A stretch of DNA of 64,000 nt from Opitutia bacterium (lineage in GTDB: Bacteria; Verrucomicrobiota; Verrucomicrobiia; Opitutales; Opitutaceae), in the NCBI GenBank assembly GCA_016187925.1, contig JACPIS010000001.1, positions 62,001-126,000 on the forward strand, read 5' to 3'. Under the pieces are notes generated by a model. The model was not told where the DNA came from and did no database searches. It saw nothing but the letters and a program-made list of their open reading frames with translations. The translations under genes were made by a program, and so were the position numbers. This document shows, piece after piece, positions 5,280 through 20,366 of the stretch; within the stretch, counting starts at the first letter, position 1, and every line of letters begins with the position of its first letter.

Positions 5280-5286
5280 TCCTCCC

Positions 5287-5631
5287 ATGAAGCTTATTAC
5301 TGCCATCATTCGCGAAGAGAAGCTCGACGAGGTGCGCCAGGCCCTCATCGACGCCGAGATCGAGCGCATCACCGTCACCCGCGTCAGCGGTCACGGTCAG
5401 CAGCAGGAGATCGAGGTCCACCGCGGCATCAAGATCATCCCGAACCTGATCCCGCGCGTCCAGATCGTCATCGCCTGCAACGAGGCCTTTGAGGACATCA
5501 CCGTCAACGCCATCCTCAAGACCGCCAAGACCGGCGAGCACGGCGAGGTCGGCGACGGCAAGATATTCATCCAGGACCTCAAGGAGTGCATCCGCATCCG
5601 CACGGGCGAGCGCGGCGGGCAGGCCATCTGA
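5287..5631 (+). CDS. glnK: P-II nitrogen regulatory protein lacking the T-loop tyrosine
   Basis: A 114-residue P-II signal protein that binds ATP/ADP and 2-oxoglutarate and should plug the adjacent Amt channel. The fold is clear: MKLITAIIREEKLDEV, the B-loop region TGEHGEVGDGKIFI and the C-terminal RIRTGERGGQAI. The T-loop (about residues 36-54) is atypical. GHGQQQEIEVHRGIKIIP is one residue shorter than Escherichia coli GlnB/GlnK, and His and Ile stand where Tyr46 and Tyr51 would be. The uridylylation or adenylylation site is therefore absent, and so is the Ser49 phosphorylated in cyanobacteria. Gln39 near the ligand site is kept. The amt-glnK order is the reverse of glnK-amtB in enterobacteria. 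Confidence 0.94.
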   Translation: MKLITAIIREEKLDEVRQALIDAEIERITVTRVSGHGQQQEIEVHRGIKIIPNLIPRVQIVIACNEAFEDITVNAILKTAKTGEHGEVGDGKIFIQDLKECIRIRTGERGGQAI

Positions 5632-5661
5632 TCGCGCGGCACGCGCCCGGTTAGCCCTTGC

Positions 5662-5697
5662 CGGGTCGGAGGTTGAACCCTCCGGCCCGTTTCTTTG
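5662..5697 (+). terminator. intrinsic terminator after glnK
   Basis: CGGGTCGGAGG (5662-5672) pairs with CCTCCGGCCCG (5679-5689) through 11 pairs with one T-G wobble and a TTGAAC loop, followed by a T-rich stretch. It lies 30 bases after the glnK stop. Confidence 0.75.
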
Positions 5698-5754
5698 CGT
5701 CATGGCGTGAGTCCGGCCGTCGCCGGGCATGGTCCCTGCTTTGAGGCGGGTGCT

Positions 5755-7065
5755 ATGCGTTTACCCTGTTTGCTGGCCGAAACGACGGCGGGCGCGGTTC
5801 CTCCCGCTCTGCTGCTGCCCTTCGTCGTGCTCCTGCTGCTCATCGCGGTGGTGCCGCTCGGACCCGATTGGCTTAAGCATTGGTGGGAGAAGTTCTATCC
5901 GTTCGTGGCCGTCGGACTGGGATTGATCCCCTCGCTGTATTATCTTTTTCGCATCCCGGCTGGGCATGTCGGAGTCACGCATACTCTGCTCGAGTATCTG
6001 TCGTTCATCTGCCTCATCGGCGCGCTCTTTGTCACCGCGGGCGGCATCCATATCCGCGTCAAGGGCGATGGCACGCCGTTCAACAACACGGTGTTTCTCG
6101 CGCTCGGGGCCGTTGTGGCCAACCTCATCGGCACCACCGGTGCCTCGATGCTGATGATCCGGCCGTGGATCCGGATGAACCACTACCGGTTCGGGCCGCA
6201 CCATGTCGTTTTCTTCATCTTCATTGTTTCGAATTGTGGCGGGGCACTCACGCCGATCGGCGATCCGCCGCTGTTCCTTGGCTATCTCAGTGGCGTGCCC
6301 TTCTTCTGGTTGTTCAGCCACGCCCTTCTGCCGTGGGTGACATGCAATACCCTCATCCTGGTGGTGTTCTATTTCTTCGACCGTTGGAACTACGCCGTGG
6401 TTGACTCCAGCCTGCCGCCGGAGAGCGGGCTCTCGCGTACGTGGGAGTTCGACGGCCTGCGCAACATCGTCTTCCTGCTCTTCATTATCGGCGCGGTCTT
6501 CCTGCCTGACCGGTTTTTCCTGCGCGAACTTGTCATGGTCGGTGCCGCGGCGCTGTCTTACCTGACGACGCCCGCCAGCATCCGTGAGGCGAACAACTTC
6601 AGCTTTGCCCCCGTCAAGGAGGTCGCGTGGCTCTTCATCGGCATCTTCCTGACGATGCGCCCCGCGCTGGACTATCTCGCCCTGCACGGCCAGCAGTTGG
6701 GTTTCGATCACCCGTTGCATTTCTATTTTGCGACCGGCTCGCTTTCCGCGGTGCTGGACAACGCGCCCACGTACATGAATTTCCTAAATCTGGCCCAGAC
6801 GAGCCTGCTGCCGGCCGGTGATGCCGTCGGTCCGCAGGGCGTGGCCAGTCTGCTGGCGCACCATCCGTCCTTCATCGTGACCGTCAGTCTCGGGGCAGTC
6901 TTCTTCGGGGCGATGACCTACATTGGCAACGGCCCCAACTTCATGGTCAAGAGCATCGCCGAGAACGCCGGCGTGCAGGCCCCGTCGTTCTTCGGCTACA
7001 TCCTGCGCTACAGCCTGCCCGTCCTGCTGCCCATCCTGATGCTGGTCGGGTGGATGTTCACCTGA
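5755..7065 (+). CDS. sodium:proton antiporter-like membrane protein (CitMHS/NhaD-type ion transporter)
   Basis: A polytopic protein of about 436 residues with at least ten hydrophobic segments. It belongs to the ion-transporter superfamily, as shown by GTTGASMLMIRPWIRMN, SNCGGALTPIGDPPLFLGYLSGVPFFW and, in the second repeat, NAPTYMNF and AMTYIGNGPNFMVK. The paired re-entrant NxGGxLTPIGDP and TYIGNGPN motifs are typical of this fold. Similar proteins are usually annotated as sodium:proton antiporters or putative citrate transporters; the substrate cannot be decided from sequence. The ATG at 5755 is chosen because 5695 would begin inside the terminator tail. It probably has its own promoter. 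Confidence 0.82.
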   Translation: MRLPCLLAETTAGAVPPALLLPFVVLLLLIAVVPLGPDWLKHWWEKFYPFVAVGLGLIPSLYYLFRIPAGHVGVTHTLLEYLSFICLIGALFVTAGGIHIRVKGDGTPFNNTVFLALGAVVANLIGTTGASMLMIRPWIRMNHYRFGPHHVVFFIFIVSNCGGALTPIGDPPLFLGYLSGVPFFWLFSHALLPWVTCNTLILVVFYFFDRWNYAVVDSSLPPESGLSRTWEFDGLRNIVFLLFIIGAVFLPDRFFLRELVMVGAAALSYLTTPASIREANNFSFAPVKEVAWLFIGIFLTMRPALDYLALHGQQLGFDHPLHFYFATGSLSAVLDNAPTYMNFLNLAQTSLLPAGDAVGPQGVASLLAHHPSFIVTVSLGAVFFGAMTYIGNGPNFMVKSIAENAGVQAPSFFGYILRYSLPVLLPILMLVGWMFT

Positions 7066-7727: not shown

Positions 7728-9458
7728 ATGCTTTCCGATCTCGCGCCCCAATTGATCCAGCGTATTCCGGCCCGGGTGCGGCCGGTGGTGGTGACCGTGA
7801 TTCTCGGACTCGCAGCCGGCTTTGCGGCGGTGCTCTTTCAACTCTCGATCCACGCCGTCTACCGGTACGGACTGGAAGCGCTGACGCATGCCTCCCGCCT
7901 GGCATTTCTCCTCGGCAGTTTCTTCGTCGTGGCGGCGACCTCGGCCGTGTCCGGCTGGTTGCTGACGCGTTTCAGTCCCGAGGCGGCAGGCAGCGGGATA
8001 CCGCAGCTCAAGCTGGCTTTCTGGAAGGATTTTGGAGTGGTGCCATGGCGCGTCGTGTGGGTGAAGTTTCTCGGCGGCACCTTGAGTGTCGGCGGCGGGG
8101 CGAGTCTGGGCCGCGAGGGCCCGTCGGTGCAGCTCGCGGGTGGGCTCGCATCTCACCTCGCGGGATTCCTCGGCACGGCGAAGAACGAGCGGCGCACCGC
8201 CGCGGCCGCCGGCGCCGCCGCGGGATTGGCCGCGGCCTTCAATACTCCGATTGCCGCCGTGACCTTCGTGCTCGAGGAGATCATCGGCGACCTCAACAGC
8301 CGGATGCTCGGCAGCGTCCTCCTCGCCGCAGTGCTGGGGGCATTGGTGGCCCACGGAGTGCTCGGAGCGCAACCGGCGTTTGCCCTGCACGGGCAGGGAG
8401 CGCCCCAATGGACCGGTTATGCGCTCACGCCGTTGGTGGCGGCGCTGGCCGCAGTGGCCGGCTGCTGGTTTCAACGCTTTTCGCTGGGGATCAGGTCGGC
8501 GAACAAGCGGCCGCACCGGTTGCCGGCTTGGAGCCGCGTCATGCTGGGCGGCATCGGAGTTTGGGCCATCGGCGCGACCGTTTTTGTGACGACCGGGCAT
8601 GCGGGGGTGTTCAGCCTCGGCTACGAGGATCTCTCCCTCGCGCTCGACGGCAGGTTGCTCTGGCACATTGCCGCCCTGCTGTTGGTGGCCAAACTCGCGG
8701 CGACGGCGTTGTGCTACGGCTTGGGCGGCTGCGGCGGTATTTTTGCCCCGACATTGTTTTTCGGCACCATGGTGGGTGCGGCGATCGCGGGCGTATTCGG
8801 ATTGGTCTATCCGCTCGGCCGGGCCGACCAGGTGGCCTTGGCCGTCGTGGGCATGTGCGCCTGCCTGGGGGCCGTGGTGCGCGCGCCTGTGACGGGCATT
8901 CTCATCGTGTTCGAGATGACGCACGAATTCGCCCTGGTGCCAGTCCTGATGATTGGCGCGTTGGTCAGCCAACTCATCAGCCGGAAAATGCTGCGGCAGA
9001 ATTTTTATGAGGAGGCCTTGGCGCAGGACGGGCATCACATAGAGAGCATCGCCCCGCCGCGCGATCTTCGGTCGTGGATGGAGTTGCCGGCGGCGCGCGT
9101 AGCCAATTTCTCGCCGGTCGTCGCAAGCGATCTCTCTTCGGAGGCACAGGCCGAACTGCTCGCGCAGCAGTCGTTTGAGCGCTTCCCAGTTGTGCAGGGT
9201 GGTCGGCTGGTGGGCGTGCTGACCCGACGCGAATCCAAGGCCGCCCAAGCCGCGCAGCGCACTCCGGAGCTTGAGTCGGCCAAGGTCTGTCGGCCTCACA
9301 CTTCCCTGCGCGAGATTTCCGACCTGATCCTCGCTTCGCCGAGCGGACTGTTGATTCTGCAGGATGCCGAGGGACCGGAGGGACGGGTGATGGGGGTTAT
9401 CACCATGCACGATTTGCTCCGGGCGCAAAAATCCTTCACCGAAGGGCAGCTCGGGTGA
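7728..9458 (+). CDS. CLC-family chloride/proton exchanger with C-terminal CBS domains
   Basis: The 576-residue protein has a CLC membrane domain (residues 15-430) and a cytoplasmic CBS pair (about 450-570). Anion-site motifs are intact: GSGIPQ (88-93), GREGP (128-132) with gating Glu130, and GGCGGIFAP (333-341). FNTPIAAVTFVLEE keeps the paired glutamates at 183-184, where the proton glutamate of E. coli ClcA (Glu203) lies. This favours a Cl-/H+ exchanger over a channel. CBS domains usually sense adenine nucleotides. Three small overlapping genes follow from 9509 and may share the transcript. Confidence 0.93.
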   Translation: MLSDLAPQLIQRIPARVRPVVVTVILGLAAGFAAVLFQLSIHAVYRYGLEALTHASRLAFLLGSFFVVAATSAVSGWLLTRFSPEAAGSGIPQLKLAFWKDFGVVPWRVVWVKFLGGTLSVGGGASLGREGPSVQLAGGLASHLAGFLGTAKNERRTAAAAGAAAGLAAAFNTPIAAVTFVLEEIIGDLNSRMLGSVLLAAVLGALVAHGVLGAQPAFALHGQGAPQWTGYALTPLVAALAAVAGCWFQRFSLGIRSANKRPHRLPAWSRVMLGGIGVWAIGATVFVTTGHAGVFSLGYEDLSLALDGRLLWHIAALLLVAKLAATALCYGLGGCGGIFAPTLFFGTMVGAAIAGVFGLVYPLGRADQVALAVVGMCACLGAVVRAPVTGILIVFEMTHEFALVPVLMIGALVSQLISRKMLRQNFYEEALAQDGHHIESIAPPRDLRSWMELPAARVANFSPVVASDLSSEAQAELLAQQSFERFPVVQGGRLVGVLTRRESKAAQAAQRTPELESAKVCRPHTSLREISDLILASPSGLLILQDAEGPEGRVMGVITMHDLLRAQKSFTEGQLG

Positions 9459-10845: not shown

Positions 10846-12183
10846 ATGTCTATTGTGCTCCCTGAGTCCGCGCTCCCGCGCATCGGGATGGTTTCCACCC
10901 ACGGCTATGTCGCCGCGGAACCGCCGCTCGGCGCCGCCGACACCGGCGGCCAGGTGGTCTATGTGCTCGAGCTGGCCAAAAAACTCGCCCAGCTCGGCTT
11001 CGAAATCGACATCTGGACCCGCCGCTTCGAGGACCAGCCGGAAATGGATGTCGTCAACGACCGCGTCCGCGTCCTGCGGGCGCCCTGTGGCGGCCGCAAC
11101 TTCATCGACAAGGAATACCTCGCCCGCCACCTCGGCGAGTGGGCGGAGAACGTCCTGCGCTTCATCCAGAAGCAGGGGCTCAAATACCAGTTCCTGAACA
11201 GCCACTATTGGGACGCCGGTTGCGCCACCGTCCGCCTCGCCGAGGCGCTCGACGTGCCCCACGTCCACACGCCGCATTCGCTCGGCCTCTGGAAAAAGCA
11301 GCTGATGGAGCGCGACTACCCGGAGGACGCCGTCAACTTCGAGCAGAAATACAACTTCGCCGAGCGCATCCGGCAGGAAACCCACCTCTACCGCACTTGC
11401 GAGGAAGTCATCGCCACCACACCGCCGCAGGTCGACATGATCGTGAACGACTACGGCGCGTCCGCCGAGCAGGTGCACATGATCCCGCCCGGCTACGACG
11501 ACAACCGCTTCTATCCGGTCAGTGCCGCCACCCGGAACACCATCCGGCAGCGCCTCGGCTTCGAGGGCAAGGTCGTGCTCGCCATCGGCCGGCTCGCCCG
11601 CAACAAGGGCTACGACCTGCTCATCGACGCCTTCACCCTCGCGGCTTCGCGTCTGCCCGATGCCGTACTTTACCTCGCGGTCGGCGGCACGTCGCTCAAC
11701 CCCGCCGAGCAAAAAATCCTCGACGACCTCAAGGCCCAGGCCGCCGCGCTCGGACTGGGCGAGCGGGTGCGGTTCGGCGGATTCGTCGCCGACGCCGATC
11801 TGGCCGACTATTACCGGGCGGCCGATGTCTTCGTGCTCAGCAGCCGCTACGAGCCCTTCGGCATGACCGCCATCGAGGCGATGGCCTGCGGCACGCCCAC
11901 GGTGGTCACCACCCACGGCGGGCTGTACCGGGCGCTCACTTTCGGGCGGCACGCGCTCTACGCCGATGCGTTCGACAAGGAGGATCTCGGCATCTCCATC
12001 GTCAAGGTGCTGCGGCATCCGCGCCTCTCGAACCGCCTCGCCCGCATGGGCGCACACAAGGCCCGCAGCCTCTTCACCTGGACGGGCATCGCGCAGCAAC
12101 TCATCAGCCTCATCGAGGAGCGCGCCACTGCGCTGGCCTTCACCGACAACGAGTGGGACGAACCCTGGAACGACGGAGACTGA
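10846..12183 (+). CDS. GT4 glycosyltransferase, sucrose- or mannosylfructose-phosphate synthase type
   Basis: The 445-residue protein resembles sucrose-phosphate synthase and mannosylfructose-phosphate synthase, which join a sugar from UDP-glucose or GDP-mannose to fructose 6-phosphate. It has STHGYVAAEPPLGAADTGGQVVYVLELAK near the N-terminus (glycine-rich acceptor loop), NSHYWDAG, HTPHSLG, the AIGRLARNKGYDLL donor-binding strand, and the EPFGMTAIEAMACGTP E-x7-E motif. The ATG at 10846 starts the conserved region. The next gene encodes a sugar phosphatase, which completes a synthase-phosphatase pair. The STHGY start resembles what I recall of the Agrobacterium mannosylfructose enzyme, so either product is possible. 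Confidence 0.87.
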   Translation: MSIVLPESALPRIGMVSTHGYVAAEPPLGAADTGGQVVYVLELAKKLAQLGFEIDIWTRRFEDQPEMDVVNDRVRVLRAPCGGRNFIDKEYLARHLGEWAENVLRFIQKQGLKYQFLNSHYWDAGCATVRLAEALDVPHVHTPHSLGLWKKQLMERDYPEDAVNFEQKYNFAERIRQETHLYRTCEEVIATTPPQVDMIVNDYGASAEQVHMIPPGYDDNRFYPVSAATRNTIRQRLGFEGKVVLAIGRLARNKGYDLLIDAFTLAASRLPDAVLYLAVGGTSLNPAEQKILDDLKAQAAALGLGERVRFGGFVADADLADYYRAADVFVLSSRYEPFGMTAIEAMACGTPTVVTTHGGLYRALTFGRHALYADAFDKEDLGISIVKVLRHPRLSNRLARMGAHKARSLFTWTGIAQQLISLIEERATALAFTDNEWDEPWNDGD

Positions 12184-12184
12184 T

Positions 12185-14278
12185 ATGAGCGCGCCCGCCG
12201 CCATCCGGCTCTTCAGCACCGATCTCGACGGCACGTTGCTCGGCAATCCCGAGTCGACGCGCCGCTTCAAGGCCGCGTGGGAGTCGCTTTCGTCCGAGGC
12301 CCGGCCGCTGCTCGTGTACAACAGTGGCCGGCTGGTGGACGACCTCCGGCGCTTCATCGACGACGGCATCCTGCCCGAGGGCGATTACTGGATCGGCGGC
12401 GTCGGCACCCAGATTTTCGACGTGCGCGCCCGCCGCATGATGACGGAGTTCCACTCCCATCTGGGCGAGGGCTGGGATGCGGCGAAGGTGCGCGAGCTCG
12501 TCGGCCGTTTCCCGGGCGTCCAGCCCCAACCGGACGAGTTCCAGCACGAGTTCAAGTCCAGCTGGTTCCTCGACCGCGCCCCGCGTTCGGCCATCCGCGC
12601 CCTGCAGCAGCAGCTCCAGGCCGCGGGCCTCGCGGTCAATGTGGTCTACTCCAGCTCGCGCGATCTCGATGTGCTGCCGCGGCACGCCACGAAGGGCGGA
12701 GCCCTCCAGTGGCTGGCGGAGCGTCTCGGGTTGTCGCTCGAGACGGTGCTCGTCGCCGGCGACACCGGCAACGACGCCAGCATGTTCCGCCTGTCCGGCA
12801 TCCGCGGCATCATCGTGGAGAACGCCCAGCCGGAGCTCTACGAGGCAACGGTCGACATTCCCATCTACGGTTCGCGGCAGATCCTCGCCGACGGCGTCCT
12901 CGACGGTCTCTGCCATCACGGCGTGCTGTGCGTGCTGCCCCGCAAGGAGGAATCCCGGCTCACGCGCGCCGACATGACGCCGAGTTTCCAGATGCTCTTC
13001 AGCGGCACGCGGCTGGGGTCGCTCAGCGAGGCCGAGCGGGAATTCCTGCGCACCGCCCATGCGAAGGCCCTGGAGGTCCTGCGGAAAACCATCACGCCGC
13101 TCGGCTTTGCCGCCTGTTCCCCGACGGACAATGTCGTCACCGGCACCGACGCCAACTATCGCAGCGTCTGGGCCCGCGATGGCGCCATCACGGTCTGGAG
13201 CACGCTGCACATCGACGATGCGGAGATTCGCGCGGCGCAGGCCGCCACGCTCGAGACTCTGCTCAACGCCACCGCCCCCAACGGCCAGATCCCCGCCAAC
13301 GTCCGCATCGACGACGGCCGGCCCGACTACTCCGGTGTCGGCAACATCGCCTCCATCGACAGCGGCCTGTGGGTCGTCATCGCCCTCTACAATTACGCCA
13401 ACCGCACGGGCGACCTCTCGCTGCTTTACCGGCACGCCGACCGGCTCCAGTCCGTCATGAACTGGCTCAGCGCGCACGACGCCAACAACGACGGCCTGCT
13501 CGAGATCCCCGAGGCCGGCGACTGGACCGACCTTTTCGGGCGCAGTTACAACGTGCTCTACGACGAGGTGCTCTGGTACCGCGCCAACGTCTGCTACGGC
13601 CGCATCCTCGAACTCACCGGCCGCTTCGAGCGCGCCGCCGACTACCTGCGCTGGTCGCAGAAGATCCGCGGCCGTCTGCTCGAATCATTCTGGCCCAGCA
13701 CCGCGCCCGTCACCGAGGCACGGCCGCACCGGTTCGCCGACCGGCAGTTCGCCCTCGGTGACACCCAATACCTCCTCGCCGAGATCACGCCCTTCGCCTT
13801 CAACTGGCGCTGCGACACCTACGGCAACATCCTCGCGTTCCTCATGAACCTGCTCGATGTCGAGCGTGCGCGGACCGCCTTCCGCTTCATGTGGGGCGTG
13901 GGCGTCAACCAGCCCTGGCCCATCGCGAACCTGTATCCCGTCGTGCAATCCGGCGATCCCGACTGGCGCGCCTACTACACGGTCAACCTGCTCAACCTGC
14001 CGCACCATTACCACAACGGCGGCATCTGGCCTTTCATCGGCGGCCTGTGGGTGCGCTTCATCCACCGGCTCGGTTTCCACGAGGTCGCCTGCCGCGAGCT
14101 CGTGCGCCTGGCCCAGCTGAACCAGCTCGGGCGCGACGGCGAATGGGAGTTCAACGAGTGGGCGCACGGCGCCACCGGCCGCCCGATGGGCAAGGCCCGC
14201 CAAGCCTGGTCCGCCGCCACCTTCCTCCACGCTTGCCACGAACTGGACGCCAGCCCGCAAGCGCCGGCGGAAGGCTGA
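12185..14278 (+). CDS. fusion of HAD-IIB sugar phosphatase (sucrose-phosphatase type) with GH100-like glycosidase
   Basis: One 697-residue frame encodes two enzymes. Residues 1-245 form a HAD-IIB phosphatase of the sucrose-6-phosphatase type: DLDGT (13-17), the YNSGR motif (45-49), Lys170 and GDTGND (192-197). Residues about 275-690 form an (alpha/alpha)6 glycosidase resembling GH100 neutral invertases and debranching-type enzymes: VWARDGA (328-334), IDSGLW (391-396), GDWTDL (445-450) and, near the end, a WAHGATG-GKARQAWSAATF segment. Asp392 in the DSGLW motif is a candidate catalytic residue. The protein could make and hydrolyse the same disaccharide. The gene starts one base after the synthase stop codon. 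The reading frame is continuous, with no sign of a frameshift joining two genes. Confidence 0.85.
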   Translation: MSAPAAIRLFSTDLDGTLLGNPESTRRFKAAWESLSSEARPLLVYNSGRLVDDLRRFIDDGILPEGDYWIGGVGTQIFDVRARRMMTEFHSHLGEGWDAAKVRELVGRFPGVQPQPDEFQHEFKSSWFLDRAPRSAIRALQQQLQAAGLAVNVVYSSSRDLDVLPRHATKGGALQWLAERLGLSLETVLVAGDTGNDASMFRLSGIRGIIVENAQPELYEATVDIPIYGSRQILADGVLDGLCHHGVLCVLPRKEESRLTRADMTPSFQMLFSGTRLGSLSEAEREFLRTAHAKALEVLRKTITPLGFAACSPTDNVVTGTDANYRSVWARDGAITVWSTLHIDDAEIRAAQAATLETLLNATAPNGQIPANVRIDDGRPDYSGVGNIASIDSGLWVVIALYNYANRTGDLSLLYRHADRLQSVMNWLSAHDANNDGLLEIPEAGDWTDLFGRSYNVLYDEVLWYRANVCYGRILELTGRFERAADYLRWSQKIRGRLLESFWPSTAPVTEARPHRFADRQFALGDTQYLLAEITPFAFNWRCDTYGNILAFLMNLLDVERARTAFRFMWGVGVNQPWPIANLYPVVQSGDPDWRAYYTVNLLNLPHHYHNGGIWPFIGGLWVRFIHRLGFHEVACRELVRLAQLNQLGRDGEWEFNEWAHGATGRPMGKARQAWSAATFLHACHELDASPQAPAEG

Positions 14279-14289
14279 GCCGTTCGCCC

Positions 14290-15162
14290 ATGAGTGGAGC
14301 CGGCCCGCGGGTCATCTGTTTCGGTGAGATACTCTGGGATATTCTCCCGGCGGGGCTCTTCCCCGGCGGGGCGCCCTTGAACGTGGCCTATCATCTGCGG
14401 CAACTCGGACTGACCCCGTATCTCGTTTCGGCGGTGGGATGCGATCTGCTCGGCGACGAGTTGTTGCGCCGCATACGGGGTTGGGGCATGGATACCGATG
14501 GAATAGCCCGGCATCCTGCCCGCTCCACCGGTTACGTGCGGGCGTTGCTGGGCGCGGGCGGGGACGCCCGCTACGAGATCGCGACCGGTGTCGCCTGGGA
14601 CGAGATCACCCTCGGGGAGCACACGGTGCGGCAGACCCAGCAGGCCGCGGCCCTCGTGTTTGGTTCGCTGGCGTTACGCACCCCGGCCAATCGCGCCGTG
14701 CTCGCGTGCGTGCTCGCGGCCCTGCCGGAAGGTGCGTGGCGCGTGTTCGACGTGAATCTGCGCCCCCCGTACGACGACCTCGGCTTGGTGCGCGAGCTGG
14801 CGGCGCAGGCCACATTGTTGAAGATGAATTCCGCCGAGGCGGCGCGCCTTGGCGTGGCGACGGGAGATGAGCTTTGTGCCCGGCATCTCGCAGAGCAGAC
14901 CGGCTGTCCCACCGTCTGCGTGACCGCTGGAGCCCGTGGCGCCGGCCTGCTGCAGGCTGGCCGCTGGTACTGGGAACCCGCACGGCCTGTCGCGGTTGTC
15001 GACACGGTCGGAGCCGGGGATGCATTCTTGGCGGCGTTGCTCGCCAGCCAACTGGCCGGGGCGGCGCCGGAGCGCGCGCTCGCCCGGGCCTGTCGCTTGG
15101 GGGCATTTGTGGCCGGCTGTGCCGGTGCCACGCCCGTGCACCCCGCGGCGATGGCGGACTAG
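14290..15162 (+). CDS. PfkB-family sugar kinase, probable fructokinase
   Basis: A 290-residue PfkB/ribokinase-fold kinase. Residues include CFGEILWDILP, the FPGGAPLNVAYHLRQLG substrate motif (the first PfkB signature), and DTVGAGDAFLAALLASQL with the catalytic Asp in GAGD and the anion hole. Phosphorylation of fructose to fructose 6-phosphate is the natural role here, because a disaccharide hydrolase upstream would release fructose and the synthase needs fructose 6-phosphate. It lies 11 bases after the fusion gene, so the three genes form one operon that could run a closed cycle. Other hexose acceptors are possible. Confidence 0.88.
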   Translation: MSGAGPRVICFGEILWDILPAGLFPGGAPLNVAYHLRQLGLTPYLVSAVGCDLLGDELLRRIRGWGMDTDGIARHPARSTGYVRALLGAGGDARYEIATGVAWDEITLGEHTVRQTQQAAALVFGSLALRTPANRAVLACVLAALPEGAWRVFDVNLRPPYDDLGLVRELAAQATLLKMNSAEAARLGVATGDELCARHLAEQTGCPTVCVTAGARGAGLLQAGRWYWEPARPVAVVDTVGAGDAFLAALLASQLAGAAPERALARACRLGAFVAGCAGATPVHPAAMAD

Positions 15163-15247: not shown

Positions 15248-16852
15248 ATGACCAAACCAGCTTTCCCCGTTGTCGTCCGTCAGGCCTCCCGGGCCGATGT
15301 GCCTGGCCTGCTCGAACTCAATCGGGTGGCGTATCCGCAGATGGCCTCGGAAAATGTCGTTTGGGGAGAGAGCCATCTGCTCAGTCATCTCCGCGTTTTC
15401 CCGCACGGTCAGCTGGTCGCGGAGCACGAGGGCAGGGTGGTGGGGGCGGCCTCCACCCTTATCGTCGATCTCGGGCGCAATCCGCTGCGTCAACATACGT
15501 GGTCGGGCATCACCGACAGCGGCTACTTCACCAATCACGATCCGGCGGCGGATACGCTGTATGGCGCCGATGTCTATGTGCACCCCGAGGCCCGCGGGCA
15601 GGGCGTCGGCGCGGCACTCTACGAGGCCCGCCGCCAGCTCTGCCGGCGTCTGAACAAGCGTCGCATCCTCGCCGGCGGCCGTCTGTGGGGATATCACGAC
15701 TTTGCCGACCGGATGTCCCCGGAGGAATACGCACAGCGCGCCGTGGACGGAGAGATCCGGGATCTTGTGCTCAGCTTCCAGCTCCGCGAGGGGTTCGCCC
15801 TCCGCAAGGTCATGCCTCACTATCTGCGCGACCCGCGCAGCCATAACTACGCCAGCCTCATCGAGTGGCTCAATCCGGACTATCGCCCGGCGCCCGCCGG
15901 GCCGCGCAAGGTCCGCCTCGCCTGTGTGCAACACAAGATGCGCAAGGTTTCCTCCTTCGAGGATTTCGCCCGGCAGGTGGCCTACTTCGTCGATGTGGCG
16001 GCAGACTACCAGGCCGACTTCGTCCTCTTGCCCGAGCTCTTTTCGGTGCAGTTGCTCTCCCATCTGCAGGCCCGCACGCCCAAGGAAGGCATTCTCCAGC
16101 TGGCCGAGTATGGCGACAAGTTCATCGAGACCATGCGGCAGCTCGCGCTGAAATACGGTCTCACGCTTATCGCCGGCAGCCATCCCGTGCGCGAGGGCGA
16201 GCGTCTGCTCAACCGCTGCCACATCTGCCTGCCTGGCGGACAGGTCTTCGCCCAGGACAAACTGCATATCACGCCCAACGAGCGCCGCTGGTGGGGGATC
16301 AACGGCGGTCGCCAGCTCTCCGCCATTGAGACCCCCAAGGCCAAGATCGGCGTGCTCATCTGCTACGACGTGGAGTTTCCCGAGGCGGCCCGGCACCTGG
16401 CCGACGAGGGCGCCGAGATCATCTTCGTGCCTTTCTGCACCGACAACCGCCAAGGCTACCTGCGCGTGCGTTATTGTGCGCAGGCCCGGGCCATCGAGAA
16501 CCAGGTCTATGTCGCCCTCGCGGGCAACGTCGGCAATCTGCCCGATGTCGCCAACATGGACATCCAATACAGCCAGGCCGCCGTGCTCACGCCCTCCGAC
16601 ATGGCCTTTGCCCGCGATGGCGTGGCGGCCGAGGCCGACTCCAGCGAGGAAACCCTCCTGATCTGTGACCTCGACCTCGACGCGCTGCATCATTCTCGCA
16701 ACGAGGGCACGGTGACGCCGCGCCTCGACCGTCGCCCCGATCTCTTCAAGATCGTCTCCACCTTGGCCGCCCCGGGCGCCCCGTCCTCTCCCGGTGACGG
16801 GCCACTGGGCGACCAGCCGGCCGCGCCCGTGGGTGAGCCCACGGCCTCCTGA
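15248..16852 (+). CDS. bifunctional GNAT acetyltransferase-like / carbon-nitrogen hydrolase (nitrilase) protein
   Basis: A 534-residue two-domain protein of a known fusion family (Bacillus YhcX-like). Residues 8-215 form a GNAT fold, with the acetyl-CoA loop in VHPEARGQGVGAALYEARR. Residues 225-500 form a nitrilase/amidase domain with the complete Glu-Lys-Cys triad: Glu in FVLLPELFS, Lys in AQDKLHITPNE and Cys in VLICYDVEFPE. The substrate of this family is not established. A Pro/Ala/Gly-rich C-terminal tail of about 30 residues is probably disordered. It separates the sugar operon from the K+ uptake genes and ends 14 bases before the next gene. Confidence 0.93.
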   Translation: MTKPAFPVVVRQASRADVPGLLELNRVAYPQMASENVVWGESHLLSHLRVFPHGQLVAEHEGRVVGAASTLIVDLGRNPLRQHTWSGITDSGYFTNHDPAADTLYGADVYVHPEARGQGVGAALYEARRQLCRRLNKRRILAGGRLWGYHDFADRMSPEEYAQRAVDGEIRDLVLSFQLREGFALRKVMPHYLRDPRSHNYASLIEWLNPDYRPAPAGPRKVRLACVQHKMRKVSSFEDFARQVAYFVDVAADYQADFVLLPELFSVQLLSHLQARTPKEGILQLAEYGDKFIETMRQLALKYGLTLIAGSHPVREGERLLNRCHICLPGGQVFAQDKLHITPNERRWWGINGGRQLSAIETPKAKIGVLICYDVEFPEAARHLADEGAEIIFVPFCTDNRQGYLRVRYCAQARAIENQVYVALAGNVGNLPDVANMDIQYSQAAVLTPSDMAFARDGVAAEADSSEETLLICDLDLDALHHSRNEGTVTPRLDRRPDLFKIVSTLAAPGAPSSPGDGPLGDQPAAPVGEPTAS

Positions 16853-16866
16853 ACACGCCGGTGCCC

Positions 16867-18318
16867 ATGTCTCCGGAATCCCGTTTGCCCTCGCGGCTCC
16901 AGCTGCCCCGCATTCCATTCTCTGATGTCAAATGGTTGTCGGCCTTCCAGCCGCAGCGCAGCGATCCAGATCTGCGCTCCGTGCCCTTGGGGTTTCTCGC
17001 GTTCATCGCCCTGGGTGGCGCACTGCTTCTGACGCCCTGGGCGTGCGCGCCGGGACACGCGCTGGCGGTGATCGATGCCTTCTTCCTGTCGGCCTCAGCC
17101 GTCTGCGTCACCGGTCTGGCCCCGGTCAACATCTCCGAGACGCTCAGCGGCTTCGGTCACGGGGTCATTCTGCTCCTCCTCCAACTTGGAGGCCTCGGCA
17201 TCGTCACGGCGAGCCTGGCGCTCGTCATGCTCGGGGGGAAGCGGCTTTCCCTGGCGCACGAGGGGGCGGTCGCTGCGACCATCGGCCGGTTGCAGCGCGC
17301 CACCCCCGCGGAGCTTTTTCGCTACAGTTGCCTGATGGTCGCGCTCTGCGAGAGTGCCGGTGCGGCCAGCCTGTATTGGCGCTTGCAGGCGCTCAACCCG
17401 GCGGCGGACCCACTCACGCTTGTCTGGCAGGCGGTGTTTCATGCGGTCAGTGGATTCTGCAATGCCGGATTTTCGATTTTCCCCGAAGGTCTCGTCGCGT
17501 GGCGCGGGGACCCGGTGCTGCTCGGTATCATCGACCTGCTCGTCATCGCGGGCGGCATCGGTCTGCTTTCCCTCATCAATCTCCGTTACTATTACTTCTG
17601 GCGGCGCGATCCCCGGCGTCGCGGCCGCATGGCGCTGCAGACCAAGCTGGCCGCCGGCGTCACGCTCCTGCTGATCGGCGCCGGCACCGGCGTCACGCTT
17701 CTCTTCGAGTGGAATCATGCCTTTTCCGACGAGGCCGTGGCGCAGAAATTCTCTTGGGCGGTATTCCATTCCGTGATGTGCCGCACGGCGGGCTTCAATG
17801 TCGTCGACCCGGGGCAGATGCACCCGGCCACCTTGCTTTCCGGTATGGTGCTGATGTTCGTCGGTGGCTCGCCCGGATCGATGGCCGGTGGCATCAAGAC
17901 GGTCACGTTGGCCGTGCTCTATTGCGCGGCCCGGGCTGCACTCCTGCGGCAGGAGACGGTCGAGATGCTGGGCCGGCGCATCTCCCCGCGGGCTGTCGGC
18001 ATCGCACTCATGCTCGCCATGCTGGCGCTCGCCACGGTTCTGCTCGGCATCGGGTGCCTCATGCTGACGGAATTGGGTGAGCCGGCCGCCGCCGTCACCG
18101 GGGGCTGGCTGGGGTTGATGTTTGAGGCGTTCTCCGCCTTCGGCACCACGGGGCTCAGCACGGGTGTCACGTCGTTGCTCACGCTCAGCGGCAAGCTCGT
18201 CGTCATGGCGCTCATGTTCCTTGGCCGTGTCGGACCGCTCGTGCTTGCGGTTTATCTGGCGCGCCCCGTCCGCCCCTGGCACATTCGTCCACCCGAGGAG
18301 GAAGTTGCCCTCGGCTGA
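16867..18318 (+). CDS. ktrB: TrkH/KtrB-type potassium (or Na+-dependent K+) transporter subunit
   Basis: The 483-residue inner-membrane protein has four membrane-pore-membrane repeats. Filter segments are visible as SAVCVTGLAPVN, HAVSGFCNAGFS, SVMCRTAGFNVVD and SAFGTTGLSTGV, each with the key Gly. The size lies between KtrB and TrkH. The adjacent regulator has a single RCK module, which favours a Ktr-like system. I use the ATG at 16867; a GTG at 16861 in the same frame would add two residues. The regulatory RCK subunit gene follows 13 bases after its stop. Confidence 0.93.
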   Translation: MSPESRLPSRLQLPRIPFSDVKWLSAFQPQRSDPDLRSVPLGFLAFIALGGALLLTPWACAPGHALAVIDAFFLSASAVCVTGLAPVNISETLSGFGHGVILLLLQLGGLGIVTASLALVMLGGKRLSLAHEGAVAATIGRLQRATPAELFRYSCLMVALCESAGAASLYWRLQALNPAADPLTLVWQAVFHAVSGFCNAGFSIFPEGLVAWRGDPVLLGIIDLLVIAGGIGLLSLINLRYYYFWRRDPRRRGRMALQTKLAAGVTLLLIGAGTGVTLLFEWNHAFSDEAVAQKFSWAVFHSVMCRTAGFNVVDPGQMHPATLLSGMVLMFVGGSPGSMAGGIKTVTLAVLYCAARAALLRQETVEMLGRRISPRAVGIALMLAMLALATVLLGIGCLMLTELGEPAAAVTGGWLGLMFEAFSAFGTTGLSTGVTSLLTLSGKLVVMALMFLGRVGPLVLAVYLARPVRPWHIRPPEEEVALG

Positions 18319-18331
18319 ACCGTTTTTCCCT

Positions 18332-19006
18332 ATGCCTAAACGCATCTTCATCCTCGGCGGCGGCCGCTTCGGCGTGCATCTCGCCACCCGACTCTGTGAA
18401 TTCGGCTGCGAGGTCGTCATTGCCGACGCCGACGCGGAGCGCGTCAAGGACCTCTCCGCCGACGGCTTCCATGCCATCGAGATGGACGCCAATGACGAGA
18501 CCGCGCTCAAGGATTCCGGCGCGCTCACCGCCGATGTCACCGTGGTCGCCATCGGCGAGAACATGCAGGCCAGCATCCTCGCCACCCTGCTGCTCAAGCA
18601 GTACCAGGCCCGTCGCGTGGTTTCCCGCGCCCTCGACGCCAAGCACGCCCAGGTGCTCGAGCGCCTCGGCGCCGACGAGGTCATCCTGCCTGTGCGCGAC
18701 ATGGCCTATCGTCTCGCCGAGCGTTTGCGGGAGGGCGCACAGGGAGAACGCCAGCCCCTTGTCGGGGCCTTTCTGCTCGCCGAGATCCCGCTGGGCGCAC
18801 GGCTTGCGGGCCAAGGTTTCGATGCAGCCCGCCTGCGGGAGGATTTTGAGGTCAACGCCGTGTTGCTCAAGCAGGCCGAGGGCGACCGCGCGGTGGTGCA
18901 CGAGCCCTCTCCCGGGATCATTTTCAGCGAGGGCGACATACTCTGGCTGATCGGCACTCGAGAGCACCTGCATCGTTTCGAGCGCCAGTGTGGCCGCGGG
19001 CAGTAG
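18332..19006 (+). CDS. ktrA: RCK-domain K+ uptake regulator (KtrA/TrkA type)
   Basis: A 224-residue cytoplasmic protein with one RCK_N domain (ILGGGRFGVHLATRL, a GxGxxG-type nucleotide site, with acidic DADAERV at the end of strand two) and one RCK_C domain (about 145-220). Single-module size is typical of KtrA, which gates KtrB as an octameric ring on binding ATP/ADP or NAD(H). RVVSRALDAKHAQVLERLGADEVILP is characteristic. The gene ends nine bases before a convergent antiporter gene. Confidence 0.94.
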   Translation: MPKRIFILGGGRFGVHLATRLCEFGCEVVIADADAERVKDLSADGFHAIEMDANDETALKDSGALTADVTVVAIGENMQASILATLLLKQYQARRVVSRALDAKHAQVLERLGADEVILPVRDMAYRLAERLREGAQGERQPLVGAFLLAEIPLGARLAGQGFDAARLREDFEVNAVLLKQAEGDRAVVHEPSPGIIFSEGDILWLIGTREHLHRFERQCGRGQ

Positions 19007-19015
19007 CGGAGTGAC

Positions 19016-20146
19016 TCAGCTCGTGGTCGGGGGGCGCCGTTCCGTTTGGGCCGGCAAGGCCACCAGCGCGATCAGCGTCAGGGCCAGGCCCGTGAGCAGC
19101 AGCCACGCGACCACCTCCGGCGCCGCGCCGGCCTTGAGCAGCGAACTCGCGGCCAGTGCGATCATGGTGAAATTGGGGCAGAGCAGCAGCCAGGCGTTCG
19201 CGTCGCCTCCGAGCCGCGCGAACCGGGCGTGCAGCAGGGAGCGGAACGCGATCAACAGCGCCGCCGCCACTACGGCCAGCAGCGCCACGTGGGAAAACAG
19301 CGCGCCGAGCGGCACCAGCGTGCCGAGGGCGAGAAAGAACAGCGGGATGAGGAACCGCCGGCTGATCGGGGCCAGGTATTCCTCCAGGGTCTTGTCGTCG
19401 TGCCGCACGTGGCTGGAGAACAGACCGAGGAAGAACGCGGTCTTCGGTCCGGCGAGTCCCAGGCGCTCGCCCGCGGCGCAGGCGACGAGCACGAGCACCG
19501 CCACCAGGTGCAGCCGCCAGTGCGTGGCCTGCTCGAGCACCCGCTGGAGCAGCCGCGCCAGCGGCACGGCCACGCGGCTGCAGGCGTAGATGACCACCGC
19601 CATGCCGGCCAGCTTCAGGCCGATCAGCCAGCTGGCGCCCGAGCCGAGCGCGGTCGTCTCGACCGCGAGGAGCAGCACAGCCAGCACTTCCAGCAGCACC
19701 ATGACCTGCAGGGCGAAGGGGCGCGCCGCTCCGCCGAGTCCGGGGTAGTTCTTCCAGGCCGTGTGGGCCATGCCGACCGCGCAGGCGCTGATGGCCGCCG
19801 CCGCGATGAAGGCCTCGTGCCAGGACAAGCCGGCCAGCCGCGCCAGCGCCAGCATCACCGGATACTGCGGCAGCACCCAGCGCAGCACATAGAGTCCCGG
19901 TCCGCGCAATTCGCGGCCGGGGGGCAGTTCGATCTCGAGGCCGACCTCGAAGAGCAGCAGCACGAAGCCGATTTGCCCCGCCTCCTGCAGCAGCGTGCCC
20001 ACCTCGGGCCGCAGCAGCGGTCCGACCAGCAGCCCGACGCACACGAACGCCGGGTAGGCCAGCGCCGGCCGGCCGAGCCACGCGCAGGCATCGGGCACGG
20101 TCATGGCGAGAAGGAGGAGGACGACGAGTAGCTCGATGCTGGTCAT
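19016..20146 (-). CDS. Kef/CPA2-type monovalent cation:proton antiporter (membrane domain only)
   Basis: About 376 residues with 11-12 hydrophobic helices and the CPA2 layout: ELLVVLLLLAMTVPDACAWLGRPALAYPAFVCVGLLVGP, LLFEVGLEIE, and LFFLALGTLV in the second half. No C-terminal RCK/TrkA_N domain is present, so it is shorter than KefB/KefC. I choose the ATG at 20146 (MTSIELL) because the 20 residues before it are not hydrophobic or conserved in style. It is convergent with ktrA. Function as K+ or Na+ efflux is an inference from family and context. Confidence 0.83.
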   Translation of the reverse strand: MTSIELLVVLLLLAMTVPDACAWLGRPALAYPAFVCVGLLVGPLLRPEVGTLLQEAGQIGFVLLLFEVGLEIELPPGRELRGPGLYVLRWVLPQYPVMLALARLAGLSWHEAFIAAAAISACAVGMAHTAWKNYPGLGGAARPFALQVMVLLEVLAVLLLAVETTALGSGASWLIGLKLAGMAVVIYACSRVAVPLARLLQRVLEQATHWRLHLVAVLVLVACAAGERLGLAGPKTAFFLGLFSSHVRHDDKTLEEYLAPISRRFLIPLFFLALGTLVPLGALFSHVALLAVVAAALLIAFRSLLHARFARLGGDANAWLLLCPNFTMIALAASSLLKAGAAPEVVAWLLLTGLALTLIALVALPAQTERRPPTTS

Positions 20147-20366
20147 GGCGGCGGGCAACCAGATGCCTTTGCCGGAGGCATGGCAAGGTCGGGAGCACAT
20201 GAGCACGGCAAAAAATGCGGATCCTGCGCCCGGCGGTTAGGCGTGCGCGGGCTGTGGTCATCTGCTAAGGCTCTGCGAAGAAAAACAGCCGACGCTGGTC
20301 CGGTGCTTCCTGCCGTTGCTATTCATTCCCCTGCCTTTCACCCGAAAACTAACCGAGAGGAACACT

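Follow-up and report, generated by a model that had tools for sequence, protein, structure and literature searches.

A predicted sucrose-phosphatase domain fused to a GH100-like glycosidase domain in a putative disaccharide operon of an Opitutia bacterium

In Synechococcus PCC 7002, the synthesis and the breakdown of sucrose are encoded in one unit, spsA-sppA-frkA-amsA (PMC9971976, section 11, and passages of PMC11046441). A three-gene run of related make-up was found in a stretch of 64,000 nucleotides of an Opitutia bacterium (assembly GCA_016187925.1, contig JACPIS010000001.1, positions 62,001 to 126,000), hereafter called the window. It encodes a glycosyltransferase (GT) of family GT4 (P0002), a protein in which a HAD-IIB sucrose-phosphatase domain is followed by a domain resembling glycoside hydrolase (GH) family 100 (P0001), and a PfkB-family sugar kinase (P0003). 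As in the Synechococcus operon, members of synthase, phosphatase, and fructokinase families occur together with a sucrose-cleaving enzyme, a putative one in the window. In Synechococcus, however, the cleaving enzyme is an amylosucrase of family GH13 with a gene of its own, whereas in the window a predicted GH100-like hydrolase is fused to the phosphatase. The window synthase, unlike that of the spsA-type cluster, scores below the cut-off for canonical sucrose-phosphate synthase (SPS). Judged from sequence and predicted structure, the three genes probably (about two chances in three) serve to make and mobilise a disaccharide of the sucrose type inside the cell, phosphatase and invertase being parts of a single chain.

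Bidomainal proteins that combine SPS with sucrose-phosphate phosphatase (SPP) are known from plants and cyanobacteria (PMC9971976, section 7). The fusion resembles these proteins in that a phosphatase is joined to an enzyme of the same pathway, but there the partner makes sucrose phosphate and here it would break sucrose. The mannosylfructose phosphate synthase and phosphatase of Agrobacterium, a GT4 synthase and a HAD phosphatase that make a fructoside, were reportedly described by Torres and Salerno in 2007, and that system is not known to include a phosphatase-hydrolase fusion. The label 'mfpsA' occurs in an exopolysaccharide cluster of Pontiella according to a passage of PMC7356697. A first-pass annotation of this DNA, made from its letters and open reading frames, had pointed to the lack of any described fusion of this kind and had proposed an operon that may both make and break a disaccharide. 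No description of a phosphatase-invertase fusion was found in open-licence papers, but a sucrose operon of the make-and-break kind is known from Synechococcus PCC 7002. The parts and the principle are therefore not new, and it is the fused form that is apparently undescribed in the open-licence literature.

Architecture of the fusion protein and its operon

The three genes are present, on the forward strand and closely packed, as the first-pass annotation had stated. P0002 (10846..12183, 445 aa) is followed by the fusion P0001 (12185..14278, 697 aa), which starts 1 base past the stop of the GT gene, and P0003, a probable fructokinase (14290..15162), starts 11 bases past the stop of the fusion. 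The kinase start at 14290 was assigned as the first in-frame ATG after the fusion stop; the stop codon is at 15160-15162. A search of the DNA upstream of the operon gave no sigma-70 promoter-like site, a result that carries little weight in this phylum. P0001 comprises a phosphatase domain (residues 1-250, 12185..12934), a linker (residues 251-278, 12935..13018), and a GH100-like six-hairpin glycosidase domain (residues 279-697, 13019..14278). The linker was placed between the range aligned to Synechocystis SPP 1s2o (6-249) and those aligned to most six-hairpin glycosidases (279 or later). The motifs DLDGT (13-17), GDTGND (192-197), IDSGLW (391-396), and GDWTDL (445-450) are found at the residues first reported for them. 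A domain search of the 697-residue protein returned S6PP first and then Glyco_hydro_100 and GDE_C, and the Pfam matches and the predicted fold together bear out the proposed order of a phosphatase followed by a GH100-like domain. The AlphaFold2 model, built from 47 aligned rows, had a mean predicted local distance difference test (pLDDT) score of 87.2 and a predicted template modelling (pTM) score of 0.90.

The phosphatase half matched S6PP (PF05116) with 215.5 bits at residues 8-246 (gathering cut-off 20.3). When the model was compared with Synechocystis SPP 1s2o, 30% identity and a Z of 29.7 were obtained (3.0 Å over 239 residues). The window domain shares with 1s2o the HAD-IIB fold and the catalytic motifs and differs from it in being fused to a hydrolase and in lying under the SPP equivalog cut-off. 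According to the motif definitions for SPP given in section 7 of PMC9971976, motif I (DxD; D13 and D15), motif II (S47), motif III (K170), and the later aspartate pair (D193 and D197) are intact in the window protein. Conservation was assessed in 47 aligned rows, 29 of which have a phosphatase domain. D13, D15, K170, D193, N196, and D197 were intact in 26 of these 29 fusions, including that of the window, so the HAD half should be a working phosphatase in these 26.

The second half matched Glyco_hydro_100 (PF12899) with 58.2 bits, its best stretch spanning residues 527-685 (cut-off 23.6). Further Pfam matches were to GDE_C (39.1 bits) and to MGH1-like_GH (28.6 bits, cut-off 27). The top structures were GH100 invertases, 5goq (Z 37.4, 3.2 Å over 366 residues) and 6ttj (Z 37.4), and GH100 was also ranked first by Foldseek E-values. 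Rows for GH100 structures spanned Z values of 34.7-37.4, a set of other glycosidases 33.9-34.2, and a GH63 mannosylglycerate hydrolase reached 31.3. The domain is like the alkaline/neutral invertases of this family (Anabaena InvA, 5goo-5gor, and InvB, 5z73; Arabidopsis, 6ttj) in its whole-domain fold, the positions of an aspartate and a glutamate, and its Pfam family. It is unlike them in its identity of only about 20%, its additional GDE_C and MGH1-like matches, and its fusion to a phosphatase. The proposed acid D449 (13529-13531) and the proposed base E658 (14156-14158) were invariant in all 47 rows, likewise R331, D332, D392, W447, H610, and W615; D446 was present in 46 of 47. The loss of catalytic residues that the first-pass annotation had named as a danger to its proposal was not seen at these positions. 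D449 and E658 align with an aspartate and a glutamate of InvA which we take to be its catalytic pair, the aspartate lying in a weak alignment piece of 6.8 bits. Identity as a glucan debranching enzyme was rejected on comparison of scores (GDE_C 39.1 versus GH100 58.2 bits; archaeal amylo-1,6-glucosidase Z 31.4 versus 37.4).

P0002 contains GT4 domains (Pfam), and its nearest sequence in the Protein Data Bank was the SPS of T. elongatus (TeSPS, 6kih, E 3.5e-48), with MshA next. The residues of the TeSPS catalytic centre were taken from PMC7264703. Among the 11 that were mapped, seven are kept (Q51, H158, R178, R249, E331, P332, and E339), two are conservatively replaced (R105 as K89 and L335 as M340), and two are changed (A48 as T33 and R253 as N253). 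Because related GT4 enzymes may share these residues, they leave the substrate unsettled. Q36, K89, H144, R174, R249, and E336 of P0002 were invariant in 29 rows. For P0002, we propose fructose 6-phosphate as the acceptor and a nucleotide sugar as the donor of glucose (or mannose). P0003 matched PfkB (PF00294) with 135.1 bits. Its nearest solved relative was 2qhp, titled 'Fructokinase' (E 3.2e-39), and it scored 68.1 bits against the NCBIfam fructokinase equivalog NF006957, below the cut-off of 450.

Distribution and synthase partners of the fusion

The suggestion that the fusion be counted across genomes was followed in two samples, and genomes (G) and loci (L) were numbered. Full-length copies were found in 17 of 57 genomes in a sample of relatives, the genome of the window included (one internal stop each in G031 and G056), and in 25 of 383 genomes of a sample of the phylum (G056 with one stop). 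The fusion is therefore neither a product of chance nor a single assembly error. The remaining four of the 29 matched phylum genomes had the GH domain alone (two), a GH fragment (one), or the HAD domain alone (one). The fusion was also present in loci titled Armatimonadetes, Spirochaetales, Saprospiraceae, KSB1, and Anaerolineae, although the titles of metagenome-assembled genomes can mislead. Unfused HAD, GT, and GH genes lie side by side in actinobacterial loci (L076, L077, L079, and L098), in one of Pirellulaceae (L069), and in phylum genomes (L157 and L158).

A GT of the window type (E <= 1e-80) occurred in 23 of the 383 genomes, and every one of the 23 carried the hydrolase as well, 21 as the fusion (that of G056 on another contig) and two (G222 and G295) as a separate gene; since these genomes are related, 23 is no tally of independent events. 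Fusion loci with 1.6 kb or more on one side numbered 50, and in 47 of them a GT of one or the other type was present. The GT lies downstream rather than upstream of the fusion in L052, L057, L062, L073, and L078, so the association outlives changes in gene order. A scan of viral contigs, which detects close relatives only, gave no relative of P0002.

No canonical SPS above the TIGR02472 cut-off was found in the whole genome of the window. Elsewhere, the fusion does adjoin such enzymes. In a tree of the GH domain (93 rows, 83 of them different), the fusions beside canonical-type SPS formed one clade with 100/100 support (seven rows, six distinct), nested among fusions that accompany the window-type GT. 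The neighbouring SPS exceeded the cut-off of 576 in L055 (611.1 bits), L059 (612.6 bits), and L149 (597.0 bits), and those of L164-L166 were 57-61% identical to the SPS of L149 over nearly the whole length. The C-terminal HAD part of the SPS itself was matched by TIGR02471 from profile position 2 in L149 and from position 28 in L055 and L059; motif I is thus unmatched in the latter two. Canonical SPS replaces the window-type GT in a nested clade, and the fusion has thus been retained next to a member of the family responsible for sucrose 6-phosphate synthesis. This change of synthase partner is a natural experiment pointing to the substrate.

The neighbours of canonical SPS were surveyed in the phylum, where it occurred in 12 of 144 genomes. 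It adjoined an amylosucrase in five (G093, G102, G121, G143, and G177), a sucrose phosphorylase in four (G059, G089, G133, and G176), and the fusion in one (G119). The other two (G086 and G163) lacked an adjacent cleaving enzyme; in G086, an amylosucrase-like stretch (58%) lies on the opposite strand at a distance of about 4 kb, and none was seen on the 7.3-kb contig of G163. The amylosucrase gene of L153 was assigned by its match to 3ueq (E 3.2e-201) and the other four by similarity to it. The genes of L154 and L156 passed TIGR03852 (656.0 and 631.3 bits, cut-off 334.4), that of L154 being nearest to sucrose phosphorylase 7qqj. Since nine of the 12 canonical SPS adjoin an amylosucrase or a sucrose phosphorylase, the fused GH domain appears to hold the place of the sucrose-cleaving enzyme. 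In the fusion loci examined, many of which have short flanks, the only candidates for either enzyme were GH13 genes of 25% identity in L078 (4493-10016). One of these encodes a trehalose synthase (TreS; 855 bits, cut-off 678), and the fusion comes directly after the TreS gene and a further gene of family GH13.

A further hydrolase type was seen on a plasmid of Paracoccus sp. TOH (L100, 6668-10260). Here, a GT 47.9% identical to that of the window is accompanied by an S6PP phosphatase and by a protein with a weak match to the GH32 N-domain (24.6 bits, cut-off 22.1); we regard this locus as an alphaproteobacterial version with another kind of hydrolase. Accordingly, enzymes of more than one family take the same place: amylosucrase and sucrose phosphorylase (both GH13), the GH100-like domain, and perhaps a GH32-like protein. 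As the fused domain takes the place of the sucrose-cleaving enzyme, the fusion cluster would be a variant of the spsA-sppA-frkA-amsA type. In L021 (3-3615; G039, same order), a distant HAD gene (28%) and a distant GT gene (27%) lie beside an amylosucrase-like gene (58% to that of L153), which is probably another sps-spp-ams cluster.

The trees placed the Anaerolineae fusions apart from the rest, but a constraint joining all fused HAD domains was not rejected by the approximately unbiased (AU) test (p-AU 0.314). From one of these trees, of 88 rows, 21 loci had been excluded by hand (repeats and further genomes), and the AU test was run on 53 of those rows, a thinned set that omits the long row L102. 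Given this p-AU, two independent origins of the fusion, one in Anaerolineae and one in the rest, are not claimed.

A proposed synthesis and mobilisation module and its alternatives

In the proposed module, the GT4 enzyme would join the sugar of a nucleotide sugar to fructose 6-phosphate, yielding a disaccharide phosphate. The HAD domain of the fusion would remove the phosphate and release the free disaccharide. Upon mobilisation, the GH100-like domain of the same chain would split it into hexose and fructose, and the PfkB kinase would return fructose to fructose 6-phosphate at the cost of one ATP. The disaccharide pool would buffer osmotic or carbon stress. The product is most likely sucrose, which would serve as a compatible solute or carbon buffer. 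The reactions catalysed, the compound made, its role in physiology, and any regulation of one domain by the other are what we infer from the comparisons described above. The first-pass annotation had drawn the same steps as a closed loop. Its parts do fit a make-and-break logic with a fructoside link, but continuous running is a matter of inference, and since such running would waste one nucleotide sugar per turn, control between the two halves is to be expected.

If the proposal is right, one chain should both release and hydrolyse sucrose, a prediction open to test. The architecture is found across the phylum and beyond, and it offers a candidate function for uncharacterised GH100-like domains. 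Sucrose metabolism would also be predicted where such genes bear only the names 'glycosyltransferase' and 'HAD family hydrolase', as on Paracoccus plasmids. Should the halves regulate each other, the protein would provide a compact model for avoiding or using a futile cycle in solute homeostasis.

Several observations weigh against the sucrose module. The phosphatase domain is SPP-like but scored 149.4 bits against the SPP equivalog TIGR01485 and did not reach its cut-off of 183.65. P0002 scored 197.2 bits against TIGR02472 for canonical SPS (cut-off 576) and, exceeding this, 224.3 bits against TIGR03449 for MshA (cut-off 462.5). Among structures, MshA 3c4q was ranked first (Z 39.4) and TeSPS 6kih second (Z 38.2), both with a root mean square deviation of 4.4. 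Because both equivalog cut-offs were missed, P0002 was not filed as a canonical SPS; of the sucrose or mannosylfructose type originally assigned to it, the relation to SPS within GT4 stands and membership of the SPS equivalog does not. MshA itself was rejected as an identity for P0002, its score being half of the equivalog cut-off and its partners a sucrose-phosphatase-type HAD and a fructokinase-like kinase. The identity of the GH domain to GH100 structures is only about 20%, and at the low end of the GH100 range (Z 34.7) its match is on a par with that to other glycosidases (34.2). A kinase match was obtained in 17 of 46 fusion loci with 1.2 kb downstream and not found in the other 29, so the kinase is not a fixed part of the module; the predicted PfkB kinase is present in the window and fructokinase-like, but no constant partner. 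The hydrolase appears dispensable in places, as GT and HAD occur without GH in L160, whose genome also has the fusion, and in L161, whose genome has no GH match, and a HAD without GH adjoins a canonical SPS in L159. The genome of the window has two matches to MscS, a channel considered below, neither of them on the contig of the window. To these points are added the degenerate phosphatase halves and the standalone GH relative that are taken up with the alternatives.

In an alternative that we consider unlikely, the phosphatase domain would be mainly a sensor. Bound sucrose 6-phosphate would control the invertase, hydrolysis would proceed only once synthesis stops, and the protein would act as a homeostat. 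Three Anaerolineae fusions keep a HAD domain that has lost catalytic residues (D15K, K170S, and D193S in L071; K170I in L073 and L078). In L073 (2245-5087), a second SPP-type HAD lies directly upstream of the fusion without the motif III lysine (SPP_plant-cyano 151.8 bits, under the cut-off). Joining opposed activities would, moreover, be of little use without coordination between them. The intact HAD residues of the other 26 aligned fusions, that of the window among them, speak against a domain that is mainly a sensor. The degenerate Anaerolineae halves are compatible with a sensor role but do not prove it. Tentatively, and with low confidence, we suggest a combination in which the two opposed activities are coupled in one chain. 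Sucrose 6-phosphate in the phosphatase domain would gate the invertase domain and so set the level of the compatible solute, much as PFK-2/FBPase-2 does for fructose 2,6-bisphosphate, and the phosphatase half of the Anaerolineae fusions would by now act as a sensor only.

The product of the window synthase could instead be mannosylfructose or another alpha-hexosyl-fructoside, with the GH domain an alpha-mannosidase-like hydrolase of that fructoside. The position of P0002 outside TIGR02472 would agree with this, as would the MGH1-like_GH match, a family of the mannosylglycerate hydrolase type (28.6 bits against a cut-off of 27), and the similarity to the GH63 mannosylglycerate hydrolase (Z 31.3); the kinase is compatible with any fructoside. 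GH100 invertases outranked the mannosylglycerate hydrolase, however, both in structure (Z 37.4 versus 31.3) and in Pfam score (58.2 versus 28.6 bits). In addition, a nested clade has this fusion next to canonical SPS, and the tested GH residues are unchanged in L055, the sole row of this kind that was aligned. Such a fructoside is thus quite improbable as the product, and sucrose is preferred.

It is very unlikely that the hydrolase acts on an imported substrate and is only carried along by the synthesis operon. In favour of this view, a sodium:solute symporter gene was present in five of 44 GH-bearing loci (those with at least 4 kb on both sides, standalone GH loci included), a GH-domain relative that stands alone belongs to a cluster of another kind, for sugar catabolism, and by eye L083 and L089 were seen to have a sugar-kinase-like gene and L091 a permease-like one. 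Against it, a search for the symporter did not find it in 39 of the 44 loci, all 23 genomes with the window-type GT have the hydrolase, and its fusion partner is a phosphatase of synthesis.

Osmotic context and further loci

An MscS channel gene was found in eight of the same 44 GH-bearing loci, a count that is biased upward because the same loci had supplied the seeds. Genes for sodium:solute symporters and MscS-type channels lie in or adjoin the operon in the Opitutaceae-type loci L053 (3772-6150), L036 (6109-7812 and 10999-11586), and L032 (6115-7995). In the window, the operon is flanked by ion-transport genes identified with Pfam as CitMHS_2, TrkH, TrkA, and a Na+/H+ exchanger (5695-7065, 16861-19006, and 19016-20206). 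A ClC-type channel gene at 7728-9458 was assigned by reading of the sequence only. The MscS neighbours and the ion-transport genes around the operon point to osmotic physiology, but in a suggestive manner only. At 15248-16852 on the forward strand, one protein combines a GNAT acetyltransferase at its N-terminus with a carbon-nitrogen hydrolase (nitrilase) domain at its C-terminus (Pfam).

Other arrangements of the same gene families were seen in the surveyed loci. On a plasmid of Deinococcus taeanensis (L101, 7974-9293), a standalone relative of the GH domain, annotated as GH100, lies beside a GH38-domain protein, aldolases, and sugar kinases, and its substrate may be other than sucrose. G188, a genome with the fusion, has a second operon of symporter, GT, and phosphatase genes without a hydrolase (L160, 2478-6507) and a third copy of the GT. 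The actinobacterial locus L079 has a second, distant GT4 gene (5283-6752, reverse strand; 26% identical to P0002) beside its HAD, GH, and GT genes. On a plasmid of Paracoccus yeei (L102, 4705-7863), a GT4-S6PP fusion of 677 aa is followed by a second GT4 gene; at a guess, these genes could make a larger sucrose-based oligosaccharide.

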